From the NCBI GenBank assembly GCA_021818925.1, contig JAKASU010000001.1, forward strand, positions 231,972 through 295,971: 64,000 bases of DNA, in the 5' to 3' direction. The position numbers were made by a program, and so were the translations under genes. The notes under the pieces are model-generated. The model did no database searches, was not told the origin of the DNA, and saw only the letters and a list, made by a program, of their open reading frames with translations. The DNA is from Microcaldota archaeon. Lineage in GTDB: Archaea > Micrarchaeota > Micrarchaeia > Micrarchaeales > CABMGC01. This document shows, piece after piece, positions 2,263-58,522 of the stretch; within the stretch, counting starts at the first letter, position 1; every line of letters begins with the position of its first letter.

Positions 2263-2475
2263 AATTGAGTAATCCATAGATCAAAAACAGGTTCTCCCTC
2301 CTGGGACTGCCAACAAAACTACACTATAGTTGATTGACGAGTGTAGAAACGACAAATCTATGATGTGGAAAGAACCGACTTAAAGACGCACATGTTTAGA
2401 GCCGTAAGATTTGCGAGTTTCTCAAATCGCAAAGCAATATTTATATATGCTCTAAGAGATGTGAATAGGGGACAT

Positions 2476-2757
2476 ATGTCAAACGTCGAAAAAACTGCAG
2501 AAAGTAAAATTAAGGTTACTGAAGAAGTTTCCCGAATCGTTTCCCCCGCCTTAAAAGAAACGCTGAATCTGTTAAAAGATAGGATGGTGCAGTTAAGTAA
2601 GGCAGAAGGGATAGACGGGGAAACGGTAGAATTTGCTAACAGATATGCCTTGTCTAGTTTGCCGCCCGGACCACGAAGCAGACTGGAAATTGATGCTCAT
2701 ATAAGAGCAGAAATAAGCGGGGATTCAAAAAACTACAAAAAGCAATGGATGCTGTAA
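2476..2757 (+). CDS. Hypothetical protein, first gene of an overlapping orphan pair
   Basis: A 93-aa protein I do not recognise. The ORF track begins at 2365, but a clear TATA box (atttatatatg, about 2439-2449) lies downstream of that start, so I place the start at the ATG at 2476, shortly after the expected transcription start. The protein is soluble and mostly helical by composition, with a Lys/Glu-rich N-terminal half and a central PPGPRSR stretch. Its last 13 bases overlap the next gene, indicating coupled translation. It lies in an AT-rich island next to a toxin-antitoxin pair, so recent acquisition is likely. Function cannot be assigned. Confidence 0.55.
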   Translation: MSNVEKTAESKIKVTEEVSRIVSPALKETLNLLKDRMVQLSKAEGIDGETVEFANRYALSSLPPGPRSRLEIDAHIRAEISGDSKNYKKQWML

Positions 2758-3026
2758 TCAGTGACATTGTTTTGATTTCTGAAGCACGCGATTTAAACGC
2801 GGGTGAGTTCGCCGGAAGAATAAGACGGTGGGGAGAAGAGAGCAAGATGCAGGCTATGGAATTCAGAGCTGCGATTGAGAGAAACAAAAGGAGCATAGCC
2901 GACGCAAAAACCTACAACGAAGTGCTCGGTCAAGCTGCACGATTACATAATGAACTTCACACTATAGTCACAGGGCTCCCTGAGTATCTCTCTTCCTATG
3001 CAAACAATGACATACGTCACGATTGA
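2745..3026 (+). CDS. Hypothetical protein, second gene of the orphan pair
   Basis: A 93-aa soluble, charged, mainly helical protein with no recognised motif and no membrane segment. Its ATG lies 13 bases before the stop of the upstream gene, in another frame, so the two are almost certainly co-transcribed and translationally coupled. Two small overlapping genes in an AT-rich accessory island resemble the layout of toxin-antitoxin or small defence pairs, but no family signature supports that. Confidence 0.5.
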   Translation: MDAVISDIVLISEARDLNAGEFAGRIRRWGEESKMQAMEFRAAIERNKRSIADAKTYNEVLGQAARLHNELHTIVTGLPEYLSSYANNDIRHD

Positions 3027-3129
3027 GTTCTTAGGTACTGTTTTTGAAGCCACAAACCGAGCTTATTATAGTGAAGTTTCTTTTCATATCCTTTCCAGAA
3101 GATTTTCCATTCTCTGCCATTCATGAGGG

Positions 3130-3399
3130 CTAGTGTTTTATTAGAGATGCTCGTTTTGAAGTGAGATACTCTGCTAGCCTATCACCATTGGTAAAGAGCT
3201 CTTGCGGATCGTATGTCGTGAGCCTGAAAAGAACTTGGTGCTTCAGATCCTGCGGATCAAGAAGCGGTTTATTTTCAGCAACGAAATCGTTGACTCTCTG
3301 GGCTACAACTGGCCTTATAGATGATAGAAGAGGATCCGTAGGCCAGTTTTGCGACTGGAACTTAGATTCGGTTTTAATTCTTCCATCACGCAAGAGCAC
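3130..3399 (-). CDS. Hypothetical protein in the AT-rich island
   Basis: An 89-aa reading frame starting at GTG 3399. A TATA-like stretch (caatataaataag on the minus strand, about 3460-3470) lies upstream. The sequence is hydrophilic, with a VAQRVNDFVAENKPLLDPQDLKHQVL block that looks like a real helical protein rather than a shadow. The frame stays open upstream for about 22 further codons but has no ATG there, so the start is uncertain. It is convergent with the orphan pair at 2476-3026. Function unknown. Confidence 0.4.
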   Translation of the reverse strand: MLLRDGRIKTESKFQSQNWPTDPLLSSIRPVVAQRVNDFVAENKPLLDPQDLKHQVLFRLTTYDPQELFTNGDRLAEYLTSKRASLIKH

Positions 3400-3662
3400 T
3401 CTTAGCTCCTCTCTTCGTAATTTCTCCGTTATCCCCGCCCCCGAGCCCTCCCTGGCTCTTATTTATATTGTGATTTTCTGCCTATTTAAACGAACTTGCA
3501 GCTTTGTTTTCATAGCCAAATAACGAAATCAAAGATCATAGAATATCGTTTGCTATTAAACGCTATAGAAAGGGCTCCTCACTCAAAGCGAGCCGCCCTC
3601 CTGGGGCTTTCAACCCTCAAAAGCGTGGTGGGGCTAATTAGTGGTTTTATAGATTTCTTGTA

Positions 3663-3684
3663 TTAGTTATCATTTGATAACTAA
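3663..3684. promoter_or_regulatory. Perfect palindrome, probable AbiEi operator
   Basis: TTAGTTATC-ATTT-GATAACTAA is a perfect inverted repeat with 9-base arms and a 4-base spacer. It ends 7 bases upstream of the TATA box that serves the AbiEi gene. AbiEi-family antitoxins are known to repress their own operon by binding inverted repeats in the promoter, so this is the natural operator candidate. The binding itself is inference. Confidence 0.65.
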
Positions 3685-3690
3685 CAATAG

Positions 3691-3700
3691 AAATAAATAT
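3691..3700 (+). promoter_or_regulatory. TATA box of AbiEi/AbiEii operon 1
   Basis: AAATAAATAT centred near 3695 is about 26 bases upstream of the ATG at 3721, the normal archaeal TATA-to-start distance. This makes the transcript essentially leaderless and favours ATG 3721 over the TTG at 3703 used in the ORF track. Confidence 0.55.
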
Positions 3701-3720
3701 CTTTGCACCATAACATTATC

Positions 3721-4365
3721 ATGCAGACGAGTGAGTTCCTGAGGTTCCTGGAAGACAATGGCATGCACGTATTTAACGTCAACGATGCCGCAAAAATACT
3801 ACACCAGAAGAGGGGCTACACCAAGCTCTTCCTGCACAGATGCGCCAGCAGAGGTCTGATAGCCAGAATTGAGAGGGGGCTATACTACCTAAGGGAAAAA
3901 ACAAACGAGTATGAGATTGCATCGAGCATCTTAAGCCCTTCATATGTCAGCATGGTATCGGCACTGTATTACTACGGCTTAACCACCCAGATATCGCACA
4001 CCATATACGTCATCTCGAGCAAGTGGCATCATAAAATAAATGACGCCATGGGGTATGAGATATCATTCAGGACCGCCAGAAAGGATATGCTGTTCGGCTA
4101 CCACAAGGAGGCTGGCGGAAACATATCAATAGCCGATCCGGAAAAAGCCATAGTTGACATATACTATTTTAATGATATAAACGACCTGGATGAGAAGGCG
4201 CTCGATAGACCAAGCAGGATAGACGTGGCCAAGCTGGTCAGATACGCAGGAATGAGCGGCAGAGATACCGTAAAGTCAAGGGTGGCAACCCTACTGGCTG
4301 AACACGGATACAAAAGGGAAGCTACAAGACTGCTTGGGATGCAAGAAAAGAGGCGGGCTAAATGA
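3721..4365 (+). CDS. AbiEi-type antitoxin / transcriptional repressor
   Basis: A 214-aa AbiEi-family antitoxin. The N-terminal winged-helix region (about residues 1-60, with NDAAKILHQKRG and a GLIARIERGLYYL wing) is the DNA-binding part. The rest is the conserved antitoxin domain, including ALYYYGLTTQ and DPEKAIVDIYYF. The ATG at 3721 is supported by the TATA box. The stop overlaps the toxin gene by 4 bases (ATGA). Expected role: neutralise the downstream nucleotidyltransferase toxin and repress the operon through the palindrome at 3663-3684. Base composition is AT-rich compared with the core genes. Confidence 0.85.
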   Translation: MQTSEFLRFLEDNGMHVFNVNDAAKILHQKRGYTKLFLHRCASRGLIARIERGLYYLREKTNEYEIASSILSPSYVSMVSALYYYGLTTQISHTIYVISSKWHHKINDAMGYEISFRTARKDMLFGYHKEAGGNISIADPEKAIVDIYYFNDINDLDEKALDRPSRIDVAKLVRYAGMSGRDTVKSRVATLLAEHGYKREATRLLGMQEKRRAK

Positions 4366-5138
4366 TAGACAAAGAATCACTGTTTGCACGGGGCGGCTAT
4401 GAGCAGCCGTACCAGAATGAGAAGGACTACATCGAAGAAATGTTCCTGTCTGGGATATTCAACAGCCTCGACTCTGTTGTATTCAGAGGCGGCACATCCA
4501 TTTCAAAGTTCTATGGCTCTGTGAGATTTTCAGATGATCTGGACTTTTCTTTCGTACAGGATAAAGCGCAACAAAATGTAGCTGGTGTACTAGAAAAAGT
4601 TATCAAGAGCCTTTCGGAGTGGTATCCGATAAAAATAATGAGAAGAACGAACTCCGCTGGAATGCTTACATATGAACTCAGCATAAGGGGTCCGCTATTC
4701 GAAACGCTCAACAAGTACCAACATCTGAAGATAGAGATAGACAAGAAGGCTTCTGTAGTGGAAACTATAGGTAGATTTAGAAGAAATCCGAAGTATGATG
4801 ATTTGAGGCCTTACTTGGCGCTTGTCATGAGCGAGAAAGAGATATTAGCTGAGAAGGTTGTTGCACTGCTGTTCAGGCGCAACCTCAAAGCTAGGGATTT
4901 GTATGATATCTATTATCTGGTAAATAAGAATGTTGAGATCAAGGTGGGCTTGATTGATAGGAAGATGAAAGAGTACGGCCACACCTTCAGTTCCGAAAGG
5001 CTGCACAAGAGGCTGATGGGCATATCAAAAATATGGGAGAAGGAACTGCGAAGGCTTCTGCCGAGCAAAGGTTTTGTTGATTATGAGATTGCGAAAGACG
5101 CCGTTGTCGCCAGCTTCACTAAAGCAGCTCTCATATGA
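4362..5138 (+). CDS. AbiEii-type nucleotidyltransferase toxin
   Basis: A 258-aa member of the AbiEii / DUF1814 nucleotidyltransferase family. The signature FRGGTSISKFYG (about residues 42-53) followed by RFSDDLDFSF gives the polymerase-beta-type G-G/T-S and DxD active site. A later EKVVALLFRRNLKARDLYDIYYL block is the other conserved family segment. Known relatives transfer nucleotides to tRNA 3' ends and inhibit translation; some act in phage abortive infection. It is co-translated with the antitoxin (ATGA overlap). The key residues look intact, so the toxin is probably active. Confidence 0.88.
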   Translation: MIDKESLFARGGYEQPYQNEKDYIEEMFLSGIFNSLDSVVFRGGTSISKFYGSVRFSDDLDFSFVQDKAQQNVAGVLEKVIKSLSEWYPIKIMRRTNSAGMLTYELSIRGPLFETLNKYQHLKIEIDKKASVVETIGRFRRNPKYDDLRPYLALVMSEKEILAEKVVALLFRRNLKARDLYDIYYLVNKNVEIKVGLIDRKMKEYGHTFSSERLHKRLMGISKIWEKELRRLLPSKGFVDYEIAKDAVVASFTKAALI

Positions 5139-5216
5139 CTGCCTTAAAGATTATGTTGGCGAGAATATGGCAAACTGAATAAGCCACAACCAAAAAAGAG
5201 TTATCCTACCTGGAGC

Positions 5217-6656
5217 TCAGACCGGATTGGGAGGGAATCTCGCCTTCGCCTCGGCTATCTCCCTGGTTACAGACTCTCTCCACGCCTTGAACTCGCCAAT
5301 GCTCTTCGGATACTTCTTGTACATCTCGATGAGCTTCTTCATCTTGCTGTGCGCGAAGATCAGGTTCTTGAAGGCGCTGATGTTGCCGAGGCCGCTCAGC
5401 ACCTTGCTGAACGTGCTTGCGAGCGTTATCTCGGGCACGAGCCCGTAGGCCATAGCTGTCGTCTCCTCCTTGGTCAGGAAGTGCGCCATTCCGTAGTCGA
5501 TCTGCTCGTTGTTCAGGCTCTGCAGGAATATCCTGAAGACCTCAAGGCCGGCGGTCTTGTTGCCGTAGGCGTCGTTGAACCTCTGGTTGTATCTCCAGAG
5601 GAACTCCATACTTGTGTCTTTGGCAGCTATCGCCTCGGCCGCGGTCTTGCCGGCGAGTATACCGGCCACCATCGCCGGGCCTATGCCCCCGGCGCTTATC
5701 GGGTTGGGCATTGTCATTGTGTCTCCGGCTCCCATATAGTTCTTGTAAACAAGGCTGTCGAACTGCCTCCTGACAGCGACAGACCAGTAGCCCTTGCCGT
5801 TGTGGTCGGTCTCGTCGACATTCATGTTTTTGAGTATCGGATTCCACGCAACGTACTCGTCTATTAGCTTGTGAAGCGTGTCGGCCTTTCCCATCTTCTT
5901 GTTCCTCATGTCCAGGCTCTTCTTCTCCACGCCGATGCCTATGTTTATCTTGCCGTCGCTCTTCGGGAAGACCCAGCCGTAGCCTCCGGGAGCGAGCTGC
6001 TGGTTGAGGTGTATTATCGCGTTCTTCGGGTCGTAGAAGTTGAGGTCTTCGCCAGTGTGGTCGAATCTCGCTATGTACCTGCCAGTCGACTCTATGTCGT
6101 CAATGCTCACGTCCTTCTCTATGAACTCGTTAGGCGGCAGCCTCCTTCGCAGCGTGCTCGCCATCCCGAGGCAGTCGATTATCACCCTTGCGCGGATCTC
6201 GAAGTGCTGCGTGTTCTTGTCCTTGCCGAACACACCCACCAGCTCGCCGTTCTCTATTACTGGACCCTCGACCTCGTGCTTGGGCCTGTAGTCAGCTCCG
6301 GCCTTTACCGCCTCGTTGGTCATCCTCCTAGCGTACTTCGGCCTGTCGAGCGTGTAGCCCTCGCCGTCGAAGAGGAACTTGTTCTTCATGTTGGGGCTAA
6401 GAACGTATACGCCGTCTACTTTGTGGTCGATCTCAGGAGCCGACAGTTTTATGCCCGCCTCCTTTTCTATAAAATCTATGTGCGCCTTTGCGCACGCATC
6501 GCCACAGACCCAGCCCCAGTTGGTCTTCTTGCCGGCTTCCTGCGCATCGTTCCTATCAAGCAAAATAGTCTTCGCGCCGCCCTTCGCGGCCATTATGGCG
6601 GCGAGCTCGCCGGCCATTCCTGCCCCAGCAACTATGACGTCGAACTGCTCGCTCAT
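5217..6656 (-). CDS. Geranylgeranyl reductase family flavoprotein (archaeal lipid saturation)
   Basis: A 479-aa FAD-dependent oxidoreductase of the geranylgeranyl reductase family. It begins with the dinucleotide-binding motif VIVAGAGMAGE (G11, G13, G16), then the acidic LLDR end of strand 2 and an NWGWVCGDACAK segment typical of the group. A GAGDTMTMPNPISAGGIGPAMVAG block around residue 315 is the second FAD motif. Such enzymes hydrogenate geranylgeranyl chains of archaeal ether lipids. The start ATG shares one base with the stop of rpoK, so the two form an operon. GGGP synthase, an earlier enzyme of the pathway, is at 60363. Confidence 0.88.
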   Translation of the reverse strand: MSEQFDVIVAGAGMAGELAAIMAAKGGAKTILLDRNDAQEAGKKTNWGWVCGDACAKAHIDFIEKEAGIKLSAPEIDHKVDGVYVLSPNMKNKFLFDGEGYTLDRPKYARRMTNEAVKAGADYRPKHEVEGPVIENGELVGVFGKDKNTQHFEIRARVIIDCLGMASTLRRRLPPNEFIEKDVSIDDIESTGRYIARFDHTGEDLNFYDPKNAIIHLNQQLAPGGYGWVFPKSDGKINIGIGVEKKSLDMRNKKMGKADTLHKLIDEYVAWNPILKNMNVDETDHNGKGYWSVAVRRQFDSLVYKNYMGAGDTMTMPNPISAGGIGPAMVAGILAGKTAAEAIAAKDTSMEFLWRYNQRFNDAYGNKTAGLEVFRIFLQSLNNEQIDYGMAHFLTKEETTAMAYGLVPEITLASTFSKVLSGLGNISAFKNLIFAHSKMKKLIEMYKKYPKSIGEFKAWRESVTREIAEAKARFPPNPV

Positions 6657-6838
6657 TACTTCTGCACCTTGCCTCTCATCACTACTATAGGTATGGCGTC
6701 GTTCTGGAATTCCAGTTCTGCGAGTGCAAGCGGATCAGTGACACTTTCTGGGACCTTGATAAGGGGCGGCGCCCCGTAGGCGAGCTGCAGCGCCCTCGCG
6801 CCTATGATTCTCGCCTTTTCAAATTTCGTGTATTCCAT
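6656..6838 (-). CDS. rpoK: DNA-directed RNA polymerase subunit K (Rpb6/omega homologue)
   Basis: A 60-aa protein with the diagnostic Rpb6/omega core TKFEKARIIGARALQLAYGAPPLI and a C-terminal IPIVVMRG strand. The subunit helps assemble and stabilise the archaeal RNA polymerase by holding the largest subunit. The length matches short archaeal RpoK proteins. It is the first gene of a two-gene operon with the geranylgeranyl reductase. A TATA box (CTTTATAAGG, 6863-6872) stands about 28 bases upstream of the ATG. Confidence 0.93.
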   Translation of the reverse strand: MEYTKFEKARIIGARALQLAYGAPPLIKVPESVTDPLALAELEFQNDAIPIVVMRGKVQK

Positions 6839-16290: not shown

Positions 16291-17448
16291 ATGAGTTTGG
16301 GAGAGAGCTTGGAGGCGAAGGGCAAGGCGGAACTGAAGAGCAGGATACTGAGGCTTCTCAGCGTCGACGCCAGGATAAGCATGCAGGACCTTGCAAACGA
16401 CCTGAAGACCACCAAGGTCAACGCCTACAACCTTTTCAACGAGGTATCGAACGAGTACGGCATGAGGTTCGTGCCAGAGATAAGCATAGACAAGCTCTGG
16501 AAATGGGAGTTCATCAAGAGAGCCAGGCTCAGGACGAAACGCGGCATACTCGCCGAGGCGGTGGAGGAGCTGCCCCTGACGGGTTTTGGCGAATACCTTG
16601 TATTCATCAAGTTCTCCGGAAAGAAACCGGATGACGCTGAAATAGTAAAGGCGATGGGAACGTCATATGCGGCGCAGTTCGCTGCGAGGACCAGGGGCGA
16701 GTACGACCTTGTGATCTACGTCGTGGAGAGGAGCTACGAGGATGCGGTAAGGTTCACTGACATGCTGAGCAGGAACCTGGGCAAATACAAGATGCTGGCG
16801 TACACGAGCAGGGTCTGGGGAAGCTTCGGCTTCTTCCCGCTCAACAACAAGCTCATTGAGCAGTTCGACATATTCGACACCTACAAGAACCTGCTCTTCG
16901 GCCTCAACGACGGCGGCAGGAGCACGTTCACCGAGATAGGCAAGCGCTACAGCCAGGGGCCTGCGCAGATGCTGTATGCGTATGACAGGCTCGCTCGAAC
17001 AGAGATACTGAAGCGCGTCACCTATTTTGAGTCGAGGCCTGGCAACAGTTTCTCCATCGTCGCAATCGTGAAGACCCAGAGCGAGAACCAGTTCGACGAA
17101 TCGAAGGACAGGTGGTTCGCGAGCCTGGTCAGGAATTACGACAAGAATACAAACGAGTGCATCTTCATGTGCGACACGCCCACGCCGAAGGGGATGGTTG
17201 TAGTGGGCAGCTTCGCGAACAAGAGCGCTGCGGACAGGTTCCTGTCGGCGATGAAATCGGGCCTGAAGGGCGCGCAGGTTGGGAGCATGCAGATCTTGAA
17301 GGTGATTGTAGGAAGCCTGGGAGTGCGGGACTTCGACATGCGCTACGCACCGCAGTACAAGCACCTGGAAAGGAAGAAGATGGTGCCGGCCCTGGCTCGG
17401 AAAGGGGTTGAAGCCCCGGTGGAAGACCCGAACGCTTTAGATCGGTGA
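16291..17448 (+). CDS. Winged-helix transcription regulator, Lrp-like architecture
   Basis: A 385-aa protein. The N-terminus (residues ~10-60, AELKSRILRLLSVDARISMQDLANDLKT) is a DNA-binding helix-turn-helix like those of Lrp/AsnC. An alpha/beta segment near 100-160 (EYLVFIKFSG, EYDLVIYVVE) resembles a ligand-binding RAM-type fold. A second region (FTEIGKRYSQGPAQMLYAYDRLARTEILKRVT) looks like another HTH, followed by a second alpha/beta half. So it appears to be a tandem duplication. A TATA-like stretch precedes ATG 16291. Target genes unknown. The 3' end overlaps the VapC gene by 12 bases. Confidence 0.7.
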   Translation: MSLGESLEAKGKAELKSRILRLLSVDARISMQDLANDLKTTKVNAYNLFNEVSNEYGMRFVPEISIDKLWKWEFIKRARLRTKRGILAEAVEELPLTGFGEYLVFIKFSGKKPDDAEIVKAMGTSYAAQFAARTRGEYDLVIYVVERSYEDAVRFTDMLSRNLGKYKMLAYTSRVWGSFGFFPLNNKLIEQFDIFDTYKNLLFGLNDGGRSTFTEIGKRYSQGPAQMLYAYDRLARTEILKRVTYFESRPGNSFSIVAIVKTQSENQFDESKDRWFASLVRNYDKNTNECIFMCDTPTPKGMVVVGSFANKSAADRFLSAMKSGLKGAQVGSMQILKVIVGSLGVRDFDMRYAPQYKHLERKKMVPALARKGVEAPVEDPNALDR

Positions 17449-17847
17449 CCTGAGCGGTATTACTTTCACAGCCGCCACTTTTTTGAAGTCCTTTACGTTA
17501 TCGGTGAGCACGCTCGCACCCAAATCGATTGCTTGCTGCGCTATAAGCGCGTCGTTTATCCTGATCCCAAAATCTCGGGAAAGCGCCATCGCTTTTACTA
17601 TGGAAGCGGGAGAAAACTCAAGGTAGTCCATGTCGGGAGAGGTGAGAAATCGCGAGATTCTCGTTGTCGCCTCTACGGCGCCGAGGAACTTCTGCAGCGA
17701 ATGAAATACTTCAGAGACTATGATTGCATTAATCCCAACTCTTCCCTGATTAACGGCGTCTTTGATCTTCTCTACGGCCCTCGCGTGTTCGGGCGCGCTA
17801 GCCCCCTCTGAAAAAATGTGAATGTTGGAGTCTATTATAATCATCAT
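17437..17847 (-). CDS. VapC-type PIN-domain toxin
   Basis: A 136-aa PIN ribonuclease. MIIIDSNIHIF gives the first catalytic Asp, VSEVFHSL the Glu, RINDALIAQQA the second Asp and VLTDNVKDFKKV the last acidic residue, so the active site looks complete. PIN toxins cleave tRNA or rRNA. The ATG at 17847 overlaps the antitoxin stop (ATGA). It should be held inactive by the AbrB-type partner. Confidence 0.9.
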   Translation of the reverse strand: MMIIIDSNIHIFSEGASAPEHARAVEKIKDAVNQGRVGINAIIVSEVFHSLQKFLGAVEATTRISRFLTSPDMDYLEFSPASIVKAMALSRDFGIRINDALIAQQAIDLGASVLTDNVKDFKKVAAVKVIPLRSPI

Positions 17848-18095
17848 TCCCACTGCTCTTCTCCGATCTTCTCGAGCAACTCGGTCGTGATGGGAAAGTC
17901 TGTACGAAATGGTCTTTCAATCATGTCTTTGAACCACGGACTCATGCGGCTGCCCTTCTTCGGTTTGCTTATCACTATCCTGCCATTTTCAAAGATCACA
18001 GTAACGGCTTCCTTGCTCCTGGCGCCGAAGGCGTCGCTAACTCTCTTTGGTATCCTGATTCTCATCTTCTGGTCTATGACAGCCGTTTCCTCCAT
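17844..18095 (-). CDS. VapB antitoxin, AbrB/SpoVT DNA-binding type
   Basis: An 83-aa antitoxin. The N-terminal swapped-hairpin AbrB domain is visible as TAVIDQKMRIRIPKRVSDAFG with the following VTVIFENGRIVISK strand pair. The C-terminal WFKDMIERPFRTDFP region would wrap around the PIN toxin. ATG 18095 is chosen over the track's 18125 because the longer start would lie within the operator/promoter. Translation is coupled to vapC by a 4-base overlap. It probably autoregulates through the palindrome at 18097-18119. Confidence 0.88.
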   Translation of the reverse strand: MEETAVIDQKMRIRIPKRVSDAFGARSKEAVTVIFENGRIVISKPKKGSRMSPWFKDMIERPFRTDFPITTELLEKIGEEQWE

Positions 18096-30364: not shown

Positions 30365-30748
30365 TCAGTAGGGCTTCTCTGCGGTTATCTCGGATACCTT
30401 TGCGAAATCCCTGATGTCCTGGGTCAGCAGCTTGCAATGCAGGCTCGACGCCGTAGCCGCAATCACTGCGTCAGTTAGGCTGACACCGTGGCGTCTCTTA
30501 ATCTCGCCCGCCGCCTTTGCTATATCCTCGCTAACTTCAATCTTCGTGAAGAGGTTGAGCATCTCTTCCCACACAATCCTCTTCGAGGGATTTTCGGCGT
30601 CCCTGCCTGAAAAGAGCTCGGCAAGAGTCAGAGTAGAAACATAGCCAGAAACGAGTCCGTTTTTTACCTGCTCGAGCAGTTTTGTGGCTTCTTTAAAATT
30701 CCTGAGGTGATCGATGATTATGCTTGTATCAAATACAACATCTACCAC
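30365..30748 (-). CDS. VapC-type PIN-domain toxin (second VapBC pair)
   Basis: A 127-aa PIN ribonuclease with all expected acidic residues: VVFDTSIIIDHL, TLAELFSG, VSLTDAVIAATA and LLTQDIRDFAKV. Start is GTG 30748, 8 bases after the antitoxin stop. It probably cleaves a structured RNA when released. The PIN sequence differs clearly from the toxin at 17437, so the two pairs were gained separately. Confidence 0.9.
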   Translation of the reverse strand: MVDVVFDTSIIIDHLRNFKEATKLLEQVKNGLVSGYVSTLTLAELFSGRDAENPSKRIVWEEMLNLFTKIEVSEDIAKAAGEIKRRHGVSLTDAVIAATASSLHCKLLTQDIRDFAKVSEITAEKPY

Positions 30749-37710: not shown

Positions 37711-37808
37711 TTGCGCCTCCTGGCCAGCCCTTCTCCTATGTCTGACTGACTTACTTGAGTTTAGATTGTACAAGTACCGATTTAGATGATTGGTGAGCGA
37801 AACTCTAC

Positions 37809-37818
37809 GCATATAAAC
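37809..37818 (+). promoter_or_regulatory. TATA box of aglB
   Basis: GCATATAAAC lies downstream of the ORF-track start (37786), so that start cannot be used by this promoter. Transcription from here, plus a GAGGG sequence at 37854-37858, points to TTG 37867 eight bases further on. Confidence 0.55.
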
Positions 37819-37866
37819 TTAACATACAAAATCCTTTCTGCTTACACCTTCTTGAGGGTAATTCGT

Positions 37867-40290
37867 TTGGAGGAAGCTGCACACGATACACACGCTACCA
37901 CGAGCGCTGGCGCTTCTCAGCGCAACCTTCTCAAGTTCGTCAGCGACAATTCCCTCTTGGTTTTCCTTCTTGCGGTAGTCATCATAGTGCTCGTCACCGT
38001 ATACTTCAGAATCCCGATGCTGTCCTTCTACGGCTTCTATGAGCCAGACGGCTACTTCCATTATTCCATCATAAGGCTCGCTGTCAACAACGGCTTCTCC
38101 ATACCGCAGATTGACCCGCTTAGCGGCTGGCCCCCGAACTGCAACAGCTTTGCAAGCAACGGCTGCGGGGTTCCGCAGGTTCCGCACCACGAGCCCTTCG
38201 GCCTCTACTGGGTCACGCTCATACCGTACTTCTTCCTACAGTTTGCCGGAGTTGGCTACTATGACATAATGCGCCTCATGCCCGTCCTGTTCGCAGTGCT
38301 GGAGGTCATTGGCGTCTACTTCCTTGCCAGGTACTGGAGCAGGAGCCGCTTCCTAGGGCTGCTCGCCATGCTCCTCGTTGCGCTGAACATGGGCAACGCC
38401 GCGCGCACAAGCGCGCTCATCTACCGCGGCGACAGCTTCGTGACCCTCTTCGCCATTGTAGCAATAATCGCCACGATTGCAGTATTCAGAGCCGAGAGCC
38501 GGAGGCGCAAGGTAGCGTACGCTGTGATTGCCGGGGCGCTGCTGAGCCTCTGCAATCTCGTGTGGAACGGGGGCCCGTTTGTCATAGCCATCTACTTCTT
38601 CGCAATCATGCTCATACTTATCCTGGGCTTCGCCTTCGAGAAGCGTAAGCTGGTCGGAGACACCGGCTACGTGCTGCTCTCGCTCATTGTCTGGTTTCTG
38701 CTAGTATATCTCTACAGGTCGCTGATGTGGATAGTCAGCCTGCAGACTTTCACAGGCTTCAACTTCTTCCTTCTTCTTGTGCCCACGGTCCTAGGCTGGC
38801 TCTTTGCGCTCTATGTGATGGACAAGATGCATGGGAAGCTGCCGCATATTGGTACGCCAGTCAGGAAGATCGCTTTGGGAGTAGGAATAGCGGTGGTGAT
38901 CTTCCTGCTTGTGTATATTCTGATACCAAGCTCCGTTAACGACATCTTTGTCACGTCCGGCTTCGACATAACCAGCGCCTTCGCCTCCACAATACAGGAG
39001 CAGCAGCCGCCCACGTACGCGTTCCTCTTTGCAAGCTTCAACTTCCAGAACTTCACCACGCCGATGAACATAATAATGGTGATAGATACCTTCTTCTCCG
39101 GCCTGCACATTTACTGGTGGATAGTGCTGCTCGCGCTGTTCGCCCCCTACTTCTTCATGCAGATCGATGATCCGGAAAGCGGGCTCCTTGGCGGCACCGC
39201 GAGGTGGCGCTTCGAGTTCAACGAGGCAACGCTCTTCCTTGTCTCCTACTTCGCGCTGACCGCATACCTCCAGATGAACGCGATAAGGTTCAACTCCCTC
39301 ATCTCCATACCCATGTCCATATTCAGCGCCTACACGATCTACTGGCTCATCGTCTTCCTGAAGAGGTACAGGTTTGCCTACTACGCCTCTTTCGTGCTCG
39401 TTGCGTTGCTCATAATCTTCGTGGTGCAGACGGATCTCGGCTATATAACCGGGCTGGCGCCCGCAGATCAGATCAACCCGGCGTTCATCCAGGCGCTCAT
39501 GTGGATGAAGAACAACACGCCGAGCAACAGCGTGGTGCTCACCCTGTGGCCCGACGGTTCTGTGGTTGAGGGCGTGGCGCAGCGGATCAGCGTCACCGAC
39601 AGCGTGGGCTCGCAGTACGCGTTCAAGGCTGATCCATTCGCGGCATGGCTCTACAACTCCAGCCCCGATCCCGGATTCCTGCTAGCCAACATAACGGGCA
39701 AGCCTGATTACTTGCTCGTTAGGCAGGCGTGGATGGTCGAGACCGGAGGCATATTCACCGAATCTGGCATAAACGTCAGTGCAGGAAATTACGGCTACAA
39801 CCCGTTCACAAGCCTGAACGAGCGCGTCAACAAGACTTCGCAACTGTACCAGTTCTTCGGCAGCGGGCTGGAGGAAGACACGGTGCTCACGAACACTTCG
39901 ACAGGACAGACAGTAGCCAGCTACCTGAAGTTCAGCCAGGGCATACAGCCTTTCGAGTACGTTGACTTCTACAACATTCTTACCGGAAACTGGTCCATAG
40001 TGAAGCAGACCGCGTTCAACGTGACCAACAACCAGACCTTCCTCATAAGCTACTCTCCGATACCCGCGCCCAACCTCTACGTCAACATCACCTCGGCGTA
40101 CATGCTCGGCCCTGCGCTCGCGGACAGCAACATGGTCAAGTTCCTCTTCCACTGCAACGCGCAGGCGTGCCTGTGGAACAACAACGTCGCCGGCCTCAGG
40201 CTGGTCTACATCAACCAGGACACCAAGATCTTCCAGATACTCTACAACGAGAGCAACGCTACCGTTGCTGCTGCAAACTTCCCGCGATAA
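37867..40290 (+). CDS. aglB: Oligosaccharyltransferase AglB/STT3
   Basis: An 807-aa polytopic STT3-family enzyme that transfers a lipid-linked glycan to Asn in N-x-S/T. The first luminal loop has FYEPDGYFHY with the catalytic Asp61, and LIYRGDSFV around residue 180 is the second acidic motif. About 12 membrane helices precede a ~300-residue outside domain. The usual WWDYG acceptor-binding signature is replaced by LWPDGS near 559. Start is TTG 37867, supported by the TATA box and SD-like GAGGG. It is the central enzyme of the glycan island. Confidence 0.9.
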   Translation: MEEAAHDTHATTSAGASQRNLLKFVSDNSLLVFLLAVVIIVLVTVYFRIPMLSFYGFYEPDGYFHYSIIRLAVNNGFSIPQIDPLSGWPPNCNSFASNGCGVPQVPHHEPFGLYWVTLIPYFFLQFAGVGYYDIMRLMPVLFAVLEVIGVYFLARYWSRSRFLGLLAMLLVALNMGNAARTSALIYRGDSFVTLFAIVAIIATIAVFRAESRRRKVAYAVIAGALLSLCNLVWNGGPFVIAIYFFAIMLILILGFAFEKRKLVGDTGYVLLSLIVWFLLVYLYRSLMWIVSLQTFTGFNFFLLLVPTVLGWLFALYVMDKMHGKLPHIGTPVRKIALGVGIAVVIFLLVYILIPSSVNDIFVTSGFDITSAFASTIQEQQPPTYAFLFASFNFQNFTTPMNIIMVIDTFFSGLHIYWWIVLLALFAPYFFMQIDDPESGLLGGTARWRFEFNEATLFLVSYFALTAYLQMNAIRFNSLISIPMSIFSAYTIYWLIVFLKRYRFAYYASFVLVALLIIFVVQTDLGYITGLAPADQINPAFIQALMWMKNNTPSNSVVLTLWPDGSVVEGVAQRISVTDSVGSQYAFKADPFAAWLYNSSPDPGFLLANITGKPDYLLVRQAWMVETGGIFTESGINVSAGNYGYNPFTSLNERVNKTSQLYQFFGSGLEEDTVLTNTSTGQTVASYLKFSQGIQPFEYVDFYNILTGNWSIVKQTAFNVTNNQTFLISYSPIPAPNLYVNITSAYMLGPALADSNMVKFLFHCNAQACLWNNNVAGLRLVYINQDTKIFQILYNESNATVAAANFPR

Positions 40291-40340
40291 GGTGCGAGGA
40301 GCATAGTCGAAACACACGAAGATATGGAAAGGTAAGCACA

Positions 40341-41054
40341 ATGATCGAAATCGAGACTCGTAAGTATGGTTTACTGAGGATCAAACAGATCTGGTACGCC
40401 CAGACACCGAGAGACGTAACGGGATGCGATATTGTCATGTACCATTACCCCGAGAATGAACCTACTGAAAAAGGCAGCTTCTTAGAACAGAGGAGTAAAA
40501 TTCAGTGCTTAGATTTGACTAAGCCCATAGAGCGCATATATCAGGAGTTTGACAGAAATACGCAAAAGGAGATAAGGAGGGCAAGAAAAGAAGCATTTAG
40601 AGTTTCTGTAAACGAGGATTACGCTGAATTCCTCACATTGCTAAACAAGTTCATAGGAGCTAAGAAGCTAAATGTGCCAAAGATAGCTTTTGATGATATC
40701 AAACACCAGACACATCTGTTAGTCAATATCTTTAAAGCGGATCAATTGCTAGCCTCGGACTTCGCAGGCCTCCAAGGAAGCTCGATTTTTTTGCTTTGGA
40801 TATGCAATAGTAAACCACTTGGAGAAAATAAAAAACTTGTTAGCATGGCTTCCAGACTTGCGCATTTTGAGGCAATGAAATGGGGGAAGGAGAATGGATA
40901 TAAAGAGTTTAGCGTAGGTGCTTTGACCTCCAATCTAAGCCCAAACAAACAGTTCAAAAAAGGATTTGGTGGATACGAAAAAGAAATCAAGACGTATATC
41001 AAGATTTACAATCCGATTCTTAAGCTGCTGAATATGGCTTTGAAAATCCTATAA
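40341..41054 (+). CDS. FemAB/GNAT-like acyl- or aminoacyl-transferase
   Basis: A 237-aa protein with the GNAT-fold layout of FemAB-type enzymes: a first half with FDRNTQKEIRRARKEAFRVSV (the basic helix that follows the conserved Arg) and a second half with LLWICNSKPLGENKKLVSMASRLAHFEAMKWGKENGYKEFSVG, the acyl-donor region. The group transfers amino-acid or acyl groups to sugars or peptides; here a decorated sugar amine is plausible. The base composition is distinctly more AT-rich than the aglB gene just upstream, suggesting recent transfer. Start ATG 40341. Confidence 0.75.
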   Translation: MIEIETRKYGLLRIKQIWYAQTPRDVTGCDIVMYHYPENEPTEKGSFLEQRSKIQCLDLTKPIERIYQEFDRNTQKEIRRARKEAFRVSVNEDYAEFLTLLNKFIGAKKLNVPKIAFDDIKHQTHLLVNIFKADQLLASDFAGLQGSSIFLLWICNSKPLGENKKLVSMASRLAHFEAMKWGKENGYKEFSVGALTSNLSPNKQFKKGFGGYEKEIKTYIKIYNPILKLLNMALKIL

Positions 41055-41108
41055 TTCGCGTGTTGAAAGCGTAGTTTGCATGATCCGCTCACTCTAACTG
41101 ACTGGAAC

Positions 41109-41205
41109 AAAAAAAGAAAAAGGGAAGCAAAAACAAAAGGAACTCTTCCCTATCTACATCCTCTTGCCGCTAAGCGCGGTTCAGAGGAAGGTCAGGACGA
41201 AGCCC
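41109..41205 (+). repeat. 97-bp direct repeat, copy A (left of AbiE pair 2)
   Basis: Matches copy B at 42691-42787 at 95 of 97 positions, same orientation. It contains a copy of the last ~17 codons and the terminator hairpin of the membrane-protein gene that ends at 42736, but no longer belongs to a gene. Differences are at the CCTATC/CCTGTC and GGTTCAG/GGTTCCG positions. Confidence 0.85.
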
Positions 41206-41293
41206 GCATACAGAAAGCATTAAATACCCTTAGTTTTATATATGTATATCATTACAAAAAAGTGTAATAAAATACACTTATAAAAATGAGGGA
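41206..41293 (+). promoter_or_regulatory. Promoter region of AbiE pair 2
   Basis: An AT-rich stretch directly after repeat copy A. TTTTATATA at 41234-41242 is the probable TATA box, placing the transcription start inside the palindrome at 41260-41279. Confidence 0.5.
41260..41279. promoter_or_regulatory. Palindrome, probable operator of AbiE pair 2
   Basis: AAGTGTA-ATAAAA-TACACTT is a perfect 7-base inverted repeat located 14 bases before the AbiEii start. Its sequence differs from the operator candidate of AbiE pair 1, which suggests each antitoxin has its own site. Confidence 0.6.
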
Positions 41294-41968
41294 ATGGAGT
41301 TTAAGAACGCGCAGCAGCTGGAAAAGGCGAAGCTTGAAGACGCACTCATCAGCCTGCTGTACGGCAGGTACAACGGGCTCGTCTTCCACGGGGGCACAGC
41401 GATATGGCGATGCTACTCGGGGAACAGGTTCTCCCACGACATAGATTTCTACCTGCATGTGCCAGACAAGGACAGGGAGAGACTTTACAGGGAAATATCC
41501 GAGTTCCTAAGGGAATGCGGGTTTGCACTGAAGGAGAAAGGATACAGCAGGGATACAAACACAATGCACTTCCTTGTGGAATCGAACACGAAAATGAAGG
41601 TCGACATCAATCTTGGTCACAAGAAAGGCGTACCTGTCGAGTACGCGCGGGTGGACGGCAGCAAGATGCTGGTGCTGTCGCTGACCCCCGAGGAGCTGCT
41701 GAAGGAGAAGATCGGAGCCTATGAAAGCAAGATGCGCAACGAGGAGGGTTTCAGGCAGGCAGAGGTGCAGGACCTTTATGACATCTACCACCTGATAGCG
41801 CTGGCAAGCAAGAAGGATCCGGCTACCGTCCGAGCGCTTGGCGCGCTGGTCGAGAGCGTGGAGAAGAGCCCTCCGCCGAACGTGCGCAGTCTGGACCACC
41901 TGATACTAAGCGGAGTGACGCCCTCTTTGGAAGTGATGGTAAAGCGGATAAAGGAATGGATTGCATGA
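41294..41968 (+). CDS. AbiEii-type nucleotidyltransferase toxin (second pair)
   Basis: A 224-aa nucleotidyltransferase toxin. FHGGTAIWRCYSGNRFSHDIDFYL holds the G-G-T and D-x-D active site near residues 34-56; KMKVDIN supplies a further Asp and EVQDLYDIYHLI is the conserved C-terminal segment. It is shorter and clearly different from the toxin at 4362. Here the toxin gene comes first and overlaps the antitoxin gene, the reverse order of pair 1. The pair lies between two 97-bp direct repeats. Confidence 0.87.
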   Translation: MEFKNAQQLEKAKLEDALISLLYGRYNGLVFHGGTAIWRCYSGNRFSHDIDFYLHVPDKDRERLYREISEFLRECGFALKEKGYSRDTNTMHFLVESNTKMKVDINLGHKKGVPVEYARVDGSKMLVLSLTPEELLKEKIGAYESKMRNEEGFRQAEVQDLYDIYHLIALASKKDPATVRALGALVESVEKSPPPNVRSLDHLILSGVTPSLEVMVKRIKEWIA

Positions 41969-42588
41969 ACGCCGGTAGGAAGATAATAGGAAAGTTTTCG
42001 CAGTACCCCGCCTTCACCTACAAGGAAGTAGAATTTTATACGGGAAGGAGCGTGCCGGACCTCGCTCGCGTTCTCTCTTACATGAAGAAGACTGGCAGGA
42101 TATACACGATCAGAAAAGGCGTTTACACCACAACAAAAGACAGTATGCTCTCCGGGTTTGCCTACACCCCATTTTACTACGGCATGCTCTCGGCGATGAC
42201 CATAAGGGGCCTGTGGACCCAGGAATCCAGGCCGGACATAATCACGATCAGGAAGGTAAGGAACTCCAGGAAGGCGGTGTTTGGGGACAGGACAGATGTT
42301 GTGTTCGTGCACCACATACCTGCAAGATATTTTTTCGGGTACGACATTGTGAAATACGGCAGGTTCATGCTTCCTGTTTCGGATGCGGAGAAGACGCTCA
42401 TCGACCTGTTCTACTACAGGGTTAGGCTGGCGGTGCAGAACTACGGAAACCTGCTTGCCGCGGTGCGCCAGAGAAAGCTGAAGGAATATTTGATGACGTA
42501 CGATGCCCACACGGTCTCTTCTGTAACAAATTTCGTTAAGAGATACAAGCGAGCCGCAGATTCTGGCAGGCTTACAAGCGAATACTGA
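41965..42588 (+). CDS. AbiEi-type antitoxin (second pair)
   Basis: A 207-aa AbiEi-family protein. The N-terminal winged-helix part reads YPAFTYKEVEFYTGRSVPDLARVLSYMKKTGRIYTIRKGVYTT, followed by PFYYGMLSAMTIRGLW and VSDAEKTLIDLFYY, the antitoxin core. The ATG at 41965 overlaps the toxin stop by four bases (ATGA); the track uses ATG 41956, which is also possible. Expected to repress its own promoter and block the AbiEii enzyme. Confidence 0.85.
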   Translation: MNAGRKIIGKFSQYPAFTYKEVEFYTGRSVPDLARVLSYMKKTGRIYTIRKGVYTTTKDSMLSGFAYTPFYYGMLSAMTIRGLWTQESRPDIITIRKVRNSRKAVFGDRTDVVFVHHIPARYFFGYDIVKYGRFMLPVSDAEKTLIDLFYYRVRLAVQNYGNLLAAVRQRKLKEYLMTYDAHTVSSVTNFVKRYKRAADSGRLTSEY

Positions 42589-42680
42589 TGCGGAAACAGG
42601 CCTGTGGCAGTCGCCAGGCTCCTGCAATTTTGCCATGCTCCTTGCCAATGTGCGCCGCCGCCCGCGCTGAAGGTAGGAAA

Positions 42681-42733
42681 ACAAAAAAGAAAAAAAAGAA
42701 AAAGGGAAGCAAAAACAAAAGGAACTCTTCCCT
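42681..42733 (-). terminator. Terminator of the 42736 membrane-protein gene
   Basis: On the minus strand, AGGGAAG/CTTCCCT (42703-42733) forms a 7-bp stem just after the stop codon, followed by a long T-rich run. The same element is duplicated at 41121-41151 inside repeat copy A. Confidence 0.65.
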
Positions 42734-42787
42734 GTCTACATCCTCTTGCCGCTAAGCGCGGTTCCGAGGAAGGTCAGGACGAAGCCC
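42691..42787 (+). repeat. 97-bp direct repeat, copy B (right of AbiE pair 2)
   Basis: This copy is in place: it spans the terminator and last ~17 codons of the membrane-protein gene on the minus strand. Copy A starts 1582 bases to the left, so the unit between equivalent points is 1582 bp and holds only the AbiE pair and its promoter. Confidence 0.85.
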
Positions 42788-43104
42788 AGGACGCTGGCCC
42801 ATAGCCACGTCTGGTTGCCCCAAGTAAGCGCCGATAGCGTGAGTCCAGCAACAGCAGCTGTCTCCAGGCCCATCAGGCTCATCTGAGGTCCGCTCCATCC
42901 CGTTATCTGTCCGAAGCTAGCGAAGAACAGCGCCACAGACGCGATCACCGCTGCGCCCACGAATATCGGGGCCCAGAAGGATCCGCTTCCTGCGAACACT
43001 CCTCCCGTAGCTGACCAGGATCCCGCGAACACAACTCCTAGGAAGACCAGGCTCCCTATGAGCTGCAGAACGAAGGCACCCCAGTTCTGTTGTGCTCTTG
43101 CCAT
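42736..43104 (-). CDS. Small four-helix membrane protein (paralogue 1)
   Basis: A 122-aa very hydrophobic protein starting MARAQQNWGAFVLQLIGSLVFLGVVF, with about four membrane helices, a Gly/Ser-rich loop (SWSATGGVFAGSGSF) and the ending FLGTALSGKRM. It matches the protein at 43506-43889 along its whole length (SIGSLxFLxVVF, FASFGxI, FLGxAxSGxxx). The ATG at 43104 lies ~30 bases after TATA TTTAAAAATT; the track's longer N-terminus overlaps that TATA box. Few polar residues; no channel or enzyme motif recognised. Strong promoter and terminator suggest abundant expression. Confidence 0.75.
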   Translation of the reverse strand: MARAQQNWGAFVLQLIGSLVFLGVVFAGSWSATGGVFAGSGSFWAPIFVGAAVIASVALFFASFGQITGWSGPQMSLMGLETAAVAGLTLSALTWGNQTWLWASVLGFVLTFLGTALSGKRM

Positions 43105-43455: not shown

Positions 43456-43498
43456 CAAAAAAAAGAAAAAAGGAAAGAGAAAACAAAAACGCTCTTCC
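43456..43498 (-). terminator. Terminator of membrane paralogue 2
   Basis: Minus-strand stem GGAAGAG/CTCTTTCC (with one bulged base, 43472-43498) followed by a T-rich run, a few bases after the stop codon. Organisation matches the terminator of paralogue 1. Confidence 0.55.
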
Positions 43499-43505
43499 CT
43501 TCTTC

Positions 43506-43889
43506 TTACACCTTCCTTCCGCTCATCGCAGCTCCAAGGAAGCTCAGTATGAAGCCGATCAGCGACATCCACAGGTACACGCCCTGTCCGCCAGACCACG
43601 ACCACGTCATAGCGATCAGTGCCAGCGCAGTTATCGCCGCATCGCCCATTCCAAGCACGCTAAGCCTTGGGCTCTGCATTCCGGAGATGTTTCCGAAGCT
43701 CGCGAAGAACATCGACACAGACCCGATCACTGCTATTCCTACGAATAGCGGCAGGAAGAAAGCTCCTGCTCCAGCGAAGGTCGCCGACGGCGAGCCGCTC
43801 AGTCCTCCTCCGAAAACTACGTATAGGAAGGCCAGGCTCCCTATCAGTTCCAGGATGAAGGCCGAGAAGTTCTGTTTGCTCTTTGCCAT
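43506..43889 (-). CDS. Small four-helix membrane protein (paralogue 2)
   Basis: A 127-aa paralogue of the protein at 42736. It starts MAKSKQNFSAFILELIGSLAFLYVVF and ends FLGAAMSGRKV, with a Gly/Ser-rich loop (GGGLSGSPSATFAGAGAF) after helix 1 and FASFGNISGMQSP in the middle. The track start at 43949 lies beyond the TATA box (43921-43930), so ATG 43889 is preferred. The basic first residues and last SGRKV suggest both ends are cytosolic. Unknown function; the tandem duplication with conserved promoter layout points to a structural or abundant membrane component. Confidence 0.75.
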   Translation of the reverse strand: MAKSKQNFSAFILELIGSLAFLYVVFGGGLSGSPSATFAGAGAFFLPLFVGIAVIGSVSMFFASFGNISGMQSPRLSVLGMGDAAITALALIAMTWSWSGGQGVYLWMSLIGFILSFLGAAMSGRKV

Positions 43890-57319: not shown

Positions 57320-58522
57320 CTATGCGCCTTTTGTGAACTCGGAAAGAAGCACGGTAGCGTACGCGCCCTTCGGAAGCGAGAACGAGACCACGAGTCCGCC
57401 GTCATCCCTGCATGCGAGATCCTTAACGGGAGACAGAAGAGGCCTGTACGAGCCCTTCATAGAGAGCTCCGGCATTGCCTTTATCGAAAACATCTCCTTT
57501 GACAACTGCATGCGTTCCATCGCCTCCCTGGCGTATTCGCTGATATGATCGTCGTTGCTCTCGTAGCCTACGAGCGCGCCGAGCGGGAAGTCGCCGCTCT
57601 CATGAACATTCTCCTCATCCGGGAAGCCGAAGATGTTGCTGCCCGCATATGCGATGCTTTTGAAGTCCTCGTTCCTTATCCTCTGCTCGAGCTCCTCGTT
57701 GAATATCTGAGACTGCACCGCGTGTATGAACATCATCGCTATTCCCCTCGGCAGAAGGCGCAGAGCGTTCGCATAGTTGCCAGGATATCTCGATAGGTGG
57801 TAGAGAACCTTGCGCTCGCCGCGCATGTATCTCGGAAACGTGTCAAGCGCCTGCTTGAAGTCCAGCGTATCATGCAGCGCGTTCCTCGCCTCCCTCATCC
57901 GCGCGTTCCTCTCGTTGCCCGTTCCCGTCAGGTACTCCATCGCCGCACTCTCGAAATCGCCCCTGAGAATGGACAGGCCGATGGAGGCGTTGTTGCCGCG
58001 CTCGCCGAACCGCTGCGAGCCGAAGTAGTTTGGCATGCGCCCCTTGAGCTCCTCGATTATCGGCTCCGCGTTCTCGGGATGCTGCGCTTCGCGTAGCCTG
58101 GCCTCGAACGAGTTCCCGAGGAGCTGGCCGAGCTCCACGCCGTTGCTCCTCCACTGGCCGTTTATGCTTATCCCGCTTATGCGCACGCTGCCCAAATCGT
58201 AATCCGTTGTGTGGAAGACGCTCGCGAGCTGCACGCTCACAGACTTCTTGTCCTTGGAACCCGCGTATGCTATCGACTTCCTGCCGTGGCCCATCTTCTT
58301 GGCGATGGCGAGGAGCGCGTCGACAGTGTTCCAGTCCCTCTTCTGCAGCACGAACGCTATGTGCTTGCCTCCTGGTACCTCCTCGCATCCTGCACTTTTT
58401 GCGTCGTATCTCATGCCTGGAGCCAGGACCGCGCCGCCACTGGTTATCTCCTTGACCACGAAATCTTCAGGCGACAGCTTGGCGACGCCGCCGGTGCCAG
58501 CGTGTCTCGTTAACGTCAGCAT
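57320..58522 (-). CDS. truD: tRNA pseudouridine synthase TruD
   Basis: A 400-aa TruD, which makes pseudouridine at position 13 of tRNA. The catalytic Asp91 is in YAGSKDKKS; FVVKEI near the N-terminus, YFGSQRFG near 160 and FIHAVQSQIFNEEL are the other family blocks. The length is typical of archaeal TruD. Divergent from the gene at 58579. Confidence 0.94.
   Translation of the reverse strand: MLTLTRHAGTGGVAKLSPEDFVVKEITSGGAVLAPGMRYDAKSAGCEEVPGGKHIAFVLQKRDWNTVDALLAIAKKMGHGRKSIAYAGSKDKKSVSVQLASVFHTTDYDLGSVRISGISINGQWRSNGVELGQLLGNSFEARLREAQHPENAEPIIEELKGRMPNYFGSQRFGERGNNASIGLSILRGDFESAAMEYLTGTGNERNARMREARNALHDTLDFKQALDTFPRYMRGERKVLYHLSRYPGNYANALRLLPRGIAMMFIHAVQSQIFNEELEQRIRNEDFKSIAYAGSNIFGFPDEENVHESGDFPLGALVGYESNDDHISEYAREAMERMQLSKEMFSIKAMPELSMKGSYRPLLSPVKDLACRDDGGLVVSFSLPKGAYATVLLSEFTKGA

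Follow-up and report, generated by a model that had tools for sequence, protein, structure and literature searches.

The DNA analysed here (the window, a stretch of 64,000 nucleotides) comes from a 761-kb Micrarchaeota genome (G000) and includes a toxin-antitoxin pair lying between a gene for an STT3/AglB-like oligosaccharyltransferase and the 3' end of a gene for a small membrane protein, designated P1. With positions counted from the first letter of the window, the features of this region are as follows.

37786-40290, + strand: STT3/AglB-like oligosaccharyltransferase gene, left border of a variable slot (Pfam PF02516, E 3.8e-9)
40341-41054, + strand: FemAB/GNAT-like gene between STT3 and the orphan repeat (weak TIGR03019 match)
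41109-41205, - strand: orphan copy of the P1 3' end and terminator, the left direct repeat (95/97 identical to 42691-42787; GGA>TGA nonsense change)
41206-41293, + strand: putative cassette promoter region with a TATA-like TTTTATATATG and the palindrome AAGTGTA-N6-TACACTT (by eye; function inferred)
41294-41968, + strand: AbiEii-type nucleotidyltransferase toxin gene, 224 aa (PF08843, PADLOC)
41956-42588, + strand: AbiEi-type antitoxin gene, 210 aa, overlapping the end of the toxin gene (PADLOC AbiEi, E 5.1e-16)
42589-42690, no strand: 102-bp spacer from the antitoxin stop codon to the right repeat (from the sequence)
42691-42787, - strand: intact P1 3' end and terminator, the right direct repeat (present once at the empty site in the relative G002)
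42736-43104, - strand: P1, the target gene, encoding a small multi-span membrane protein of 122 aa (conserved within the genus; no Pfam family)
43506-43889, - strand: P2, a paralogue in tandem with P1 that has a similar terminator of its own, given as context and outside the cassette (53% identity to P1)

Self-comparison bears out the direct repeats reported in a preliminary description of this DNA: the two copies are 97 nt long, identical at 95 positions and in the same orientation, with a start-to-start distance of 1582 bp. As that description also held, the right copy is the true end of P1, comprising its final 52 nt with the stop codon and an A/T-rich terminator, and the left copy is an orphan. 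The orphan differs from the P1 tail by one base just after the stop codon and by the nonsense change that converts a glycine codon to a stop; its changes are of the decay type only. No third close copy of the repeat was found in the genome by BLAST, the only other match (62%) being the end of the tandem paralogue P2, at 43461-43557. The outer flank of the orphan, CTGGAA before an A-tract, is similar to the native flank in two relatives, G002 and G004. P1 has relatives at 98, 95, 87, 73, and 63% identity, and the named ones all come from "Candidatus Micrarchaeota" metagenome-assembled genomes (MAGs). Relatives of the P1/P2 tandem of small membrane proteins, neither of which belongs to a Pfam family, occur in 64 of the 79 family genomes searched and adjoin STT3 in several genomes of the genus.

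The contents of the 1582-bp unit are likewise as first described, with only the AbiE pair and a promoter, the latter recognized by eye, and no further convincing open reading frame. The AbiEii protein passes the Pfam cut-off (PF08843, E 5.1e-17), matches the PADLOC AbiEii model (E 6.1e-17), and has an unbroken reading frame in which a GGTA..RFSxDID motif can be seen by eye; for its partner, the match to Pfam AbiEi_4 (E 0.0023) falls short of the cut-off. The identity of the pair as an AbiE toxin-antitoxin system is confirmed insofar as domains and adjacency can do so, toxicity and neutralization not having been shown. The palindrome upstream of AbiEii is a possible operator for AbiEi, an inference from its sequence and position. 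In the canonical AbiE order the AbiEi gene comes first, as it does in most of the other cassettes described below; in the subfamily of the window pair the toxin gene comes first. The earlier statement that no integrase is present also stands, as no recombinase gene was found between the repeats of this unit or of the other two-gene units that were read.

Repeats of this kind are rare in the genome. In a self-comparison of practically the whole 761 kb, the direct repeats of 22 bp or more that lie less than 3 kb apart and are not intragenic numbered just two pairs, this one included, and the bracketing repeats can therefore not be ascribed to chance or to common repetition. The second pair, an exact 53-bp copy of the 3' part of tRNA-Arg(GCG) (C1:56720-56772 and 57465-57517), encloses only a VapBC-like pair (C1:56720-57517, or L115:16720-17517), with a PIN domain that matches PF10130 (E 1e-22). 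At the same tRNA gene, the relative G001 has instead an AbiEii-AbiEi pair, toxin first, whose proteins are 34 and 32% identical to the AbiEii and AbiEi of the window, respectively, and five other relatives (G003-G007) have no toxin-antitoxin insert. At a third site in G000 (C3:213380-214096), a VapBC pair lies between tRNA-Glu(CTC) and a sequence 87% identical to the 3' part of that tRNA; this is probably an older, decayed cassette. Three further toxin-antitoxin loci of the window (3703-5138, 17437-17853, and 30365-30748), consisting of one AbiEi-AbiEii pair and two VapC genes, have no detectable bracketing repeats.

Comparison of the P1 site among relatives provides an empty state, with one complication. 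In G002, the closest relative available, about 50 bp separate STT3 from one terminator copy, next to which comes P1, and the flanks of the window, joined without 40291-42690, align continuously with this arrangement. An empty site with one repeat copy, the outcome that the preliminary description named as supporting insertion, thus exists; G002 also lacks the FemAB-like gene, so that the 1582-bp unit is not isolated by the comparison and the two insertions, which may represent two acquisitions or one compound event, are not separately resolved. The FemAB-like gene has a GC content of 0.40, against 0.54 for the window, was not found in this slot in the relatives examined, G002 included, and is probably a separate acquisition, the second foreign-looking gene in the slot. 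The other proposed check, a search for the same tail around different cargo, is satisfied by G004, in which a VapBC pair lies between exact 32-bp copies of the P1 terminator. The same slot of G004 contains two more toxin-antitoxin pairs, one AbiEi-AbiEii and one VapBC, together with a GH5-like gene that has a 30-bp copy of the STT3 3' end on either side. The serial arrangement of toxin-antitoxin pairs and the GH5-like gene in this slot (L029, G004:C5, about 2300-6680) resembles stepwise accretion at one site. In G003 the same VapC as in G004 lies next to P1 at a contig end; in G001 the slot holds an AbiEi-AbiEii pair without a detectable repeat and with no upstream tail copy beside it; and in G007 there is no insert. 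The states named beforehand as refuting an insertion were not seen: no relative has the orphan without the pair, and the repeat does not belong to a larger tandem duplication.

Such variable contents (FemAB-like gene and AbiE; AbiE alone; VapBC, AbiE, VapBC, and a GH5-like gene; or nothing) might also arise by ordinary flux through the STT3-P1 slot, in which homologous recombination between flanking genes exchanges the inserts and the P1 tail was independently duplicated in tandem, in line with the existence of tandem P1 paralogues. The minimal mobile elements of Neisseria depend on flanking-gene homology in this way and are not known to have bracketing gene-tail repeats. The likeness lies in a slot between conserved genes that holds different small inserts in different strains. 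The term itself occurs, for example, in PMC2784325. Flux of this kind gives no account, however, of repeats that bracket exactly toxin-antitoxin pairs at many loci and targets, nor of their rarity elsewhere, and the family survey weighs strongly enough against it that we regard it as highly improbable.

In that survey, extended across the Micrarchaeota order, copies of a host-gene 3' end, 23-102 bp long, were found on both sides of about 28 solitary AbiE or VapBC pairs, distributed over about 22 genomes. The loci were top-scoring matches rather than a random draw, the genomes are mostly MAGs and single assemblies, and several gene names were assigned by eye. In the first family sample, 12 of 30 AbiEii loci had spanning repeats compared with 4 of 600 random windows, three of which fell on two cassettes already known; with those three left out, the Fisher p value is about 2e-16. 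A second AbiEii set gave 11 of 40, about seven of them with clear gene tails, and PIN loci gave 4 of 30 and 1 of 20. No repeat could be detected at 18 of the 30 and 29 of the 40 AbiEii loci. A further family of the order (f2) contributes three repeat-bracketed AbiE pairs, two with clear gene tails, and no gene-tail repeats were seen at the AbiEii loci sampled at class level outside the order.

Several candidates were set aside. In other Micrarchaeota families outside the order, the AbiE pairs of two loci (L240 and L245) are bracketed by a different, structured repeat of 58-130 bp that is not a gene tail; these repeats look dispersed or of IS/MITE type and the loci were not counted. The repeats of L183/L184 map to no clear gene end and were left unassigned, and eight other loci (L177, L209, L252, L285, L291, L302, L307, and L322) were excluded as having repeats that are ambiguous or that derive from paralogy or dispersed repeats.

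The cassettes that remain are uniform in contents and varied in target. Transfer RNA genes are strongly over-represented (tRNA-Leu in seven cases, along with Arg, Glu, Ser, Asn, and Cys), RNase P RNA is used twice (Rfam RF00373), and the protein-coding targets include parvulin-like genes three times as well as SAM synthetase-like, NrdR-like, GNAT, and other genes, named by eye. AbiE cassettes mostly measure 1.4-1.9 kb and VapBC cassettes 0.7-0.9 kb, often with 2-15 bp between the toxin-antitoxin stop codon and the tail, and remnants of other genes are absent. In two cases the cargo is of another type: G004 has the GH5-like gene, and G050 has an alpha/beta hydrolase, the latter at tRNA-Asp. A single site can hold different pairs and related pairs occupy different sites. 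The ferredoxin gene end, for example, is occupied by an AbiEii-AbiEi pair between 102-bp copies in G004 and by a different AbiE pair in G017, a member of another genus, and a related group of AbiE pairs is found at tRNA-Leu tails in G001, G063, G028, and G074. The tRNA at G001:C1:118537-118640 is called by ARAGORN as an intron-containing tRNA-Gly(CCC), its sequence resembles tRNA-Leu(UAA), and its neighbor is a PAC2-like gene, an arrangement shared with L196 and L197. At L216 and L217, VapBC pairs lie with copies of parvulin-like gene tails; several pairs occur serially in L216, and two tail-like copies 65 bp apart in L217 suggest repeated insertion at one site.

How the repeats came to bracket these pairs depends in part on whether the tail was duplicated from the host or was brought in. 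A transposon or MITE would be expected to produce a fixed short target duplication, which repeats of such varied length do not provide, and no terminal inverted repeats were found between 36 and 48 kb in the window. A long target-site duplication, made by an unknown transposition or break-repair process that copies the host end and involves no travelling tail, would be consistent with the decay-type changes of the window orphan and with the observation that the two copies at a site are usually 95-100% alike and nearer to each other than to relatives (at P1, 98% within G000 against 91% to G002). Such a process does not readily explain the variation in repeat length, nor why the outer edge of the repeat falls at the tRNA end in tRNA cases and in or near a stop codon or terminator in coding cases. 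Further evidence against it comes from the orphan tails themselves. The variable loop of tRNA-Arg(GCG) reads AA in G000, G003, G004, G005, and G007. In G001 and G006 the intact gene has GG instead, yet the orphan tail of G001 reads AA. This match to another clade points to a foreign tail with a crossover inside the repeat, in one case and on two adjacent bases. In coding tails, the differences between copies are synonymous in 13 cases and nonsynonymous in seven (L023 was counted by eye), which gives p of about 2e-4 against the 0.25 expected for decay of a dead copy and 0.02 against the roughly 0.4 expected for two neutrally diverging lineages, both expectations being our own estimates. The synonymous excess over dead-copy decay provides a second line of evidence for a travelling tail. 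These comparisons suggest that the tail probably travels with the cassette, and leave duplication of the host end with little to recommend it. Two other cases did not help. A donor test on the ferredoxin tail was uninformative, as the two G004 copies resemble one another more than they resemble those of relatives; at L250, a tRNA-Glu site, the orphan tail is 14% diverged with an apparently compensated stem pair, and nothing decisive about its source was found in three genomes of its genus.

A second confounding possibility is that the units are att-bounded remnants of larger integrase elements, comparable to the cis-mobilizable elements (CIMEs) of bacteria, from which only the addictive toxin-antitoxin pair was kept. 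Integrase elements at tRNA genes are frequent in the family, and addiction would keep just the pair. One such element lies in G000 itself at tRNA-Arg(CCT) (C3:379961-387477), where 26-bp repeats bound 7.4 kb with the sole tyrosine integrase found in the genome, along with a PadR-like regulator and a copper-type P-ATPase-like gene, both named by eye. Independent decay of such elements would, however, leave varied debris, whereas the units are uniformly minimal and free of gene remnants, and tRNA-Leu, a frequent cassette target, was not seen among the integrase-adjacent tRNAs. Decay from larger elements therefore seems unlikely, if less so than the other alternatives.

The reading that we prefer, and hold with some confidence, is that a self-contained AbiEii-AbiEi operon joined to a single copy of the P1 3' end makes up a non-autonomous cassette, the 1582-bp unit, which became integrated by recombination of that tail. 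A donor molecule, circular or otherwise, would carry the toxin-antitoxin operon with one gene tail, and the cassette tail would recombine with the chromosomal tail of P1. P1 would keep a complete 3' end, with the displaced tail copy, which could be either the old or the new one, left on the far side in the way that attL and attR form; addiction to the toxin would then retain the unit. The structure of the unit, the empty site, the exchange of pairs among sites, and the common architecture of about 28 loci within one order are direct observations; the circle, the recombination step, and retention by addiction are inferred. The proposal in the preliminary description of a non-autonomous toxin-antitoxin cassette that enters at the end of a gene and restores that end accordingly gains support as the best reading available, without a demonstration of present-day mobility or of a recombinase. 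Excision, a circular form, transfer, and toxicity have none of them been shown, so that the mobility of the cassettes is likewise an inference. Searches of plasmids and IMG/VR viral contigs with the AbiEii protein returned no relatives.

The enzyme responsible is less certain than the cassette. A tyrosine recombinase acting in trans, supplied by the tRNA-integrating elements of the family, is slightly favored over a RadA route, although even this version falls a little short of an even chance. It is suggested by the abundance of tRNA-sited integrases, the preponderance of tRNA targets, and repeat lengths like those of archaeal att sites. Integrase genes above the cut-off occur in 52 of 78 family genomes, and 30 of the 36 that were inspected lie within 1.5 kb of a tRNA gene. 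The distribution of these genes and of their sites fits the cassettes imperfectly. The only PF00589 gene of G000 lies inside the separate 7.4-kb element, none was found in G004, G006, or G007, and cassette-bearing G004, G058, and G062, all incomplete MAGs, gave no PF00589 match; the serine recombinase family PF00239 was not found in the genus. Against the integrase version, tRNA-Leu accounts for 7 of 15 tRNA cassettes and for none of 30 integrase-adjacent tRNAs (p about 1e-4), and a gap of 2-15 bp between stop codon and tail, found in many cases, would hardly accommodate arm sites there. Recombination across short homology by the host RadA pathway, a serious candidate that we nevertheless cannot rate as probable, would account for targets and lengths being so varied, and would fit the use of ends from tRNA, RNase P RNA, and ferredoxin genes, which are conserved enough for recombination between species. 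The shortest repeats, of 23-28 bp, are short for such a process and count against it. A broader proposition, in which a toxin-antitoxin operon with a stolen gene tail constitutes the whole mobile unit, inserted by short homology, kept by addiction, and offering a general route for toxin-antitoxin spread in Micrarchaeota without integrase or transposase, can be advanced only as a tentative conjecture.

Integration at gene 3' ends with restoration of the tail is a classical theme, and bacteria are known to have att-bounded elements that are non-autonomous. Archaeal tyrosine-integrase elements of the SSV/pNOB8 type and thaumarchaeal integrated mobile elements (PMC6563490) resemble the cassettes in having att-like repeats at the 3' ends of tRNA or protein genes, and the 29-69 bp reported for crenarchaeal att sites (PMC6563490) overlap the cassette repeat lengths. 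Unlike the cassettes, with two genes and no recombinase, these elements have many genes, extend over many kilobases, and typically encode their own integrase. Judged as an integrated element, the window unit thus has repeats that restore the gene end and a one-copy empty site, subject to the caveat of the FemAB-like gene, and lacks an integrase of its own. The CIMEs and integrase-less islets of bacterial integrative and conjugative elements (ICEs) are also bounded by att-like sequences, have no integrase, and could be moved in trans, but CIMEs are in most cases degraded relics of ICEs, located where one integrase acts; the cassettes differ as minimal toxin-antitoxin units at many unrelated gene ends, and no related integrase element was found at the P1 att. 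Integron cassettes combine one gene or operon with one recombination site, have minimal spacers, and commonly carry toxin-antitoxin cargo. Neighboring insertions in one slot are a further similarity; in contrast to integron cassettes, the units described here use a copy of a host gene 3' end as their site, carry their own promoter, and are scattered over many loci. By inspection the repeats are not attC-like, and no IntI was noticed near the sites. The cargo is of two types, type IV AbiE pairs of an AbiEii nucleotidyltransferase with AbiEi and type II VapBC pairs of a PIN-domain VapC with an antitoxin-like partner.

In the open-access literature, no published account was found of uniformly minimal units of this type, carrying only a toxin-antitoxin pair at gene tails across an archaeal order. 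It has long been asked how small toxin-antitoxin pairs spread when no vehicle can be seen, and in these genomes the scars of insertion can be read. The carrier and the recombinase thereby become directly searchable, in a group of reduced archaea about whose gene exchange little is known.
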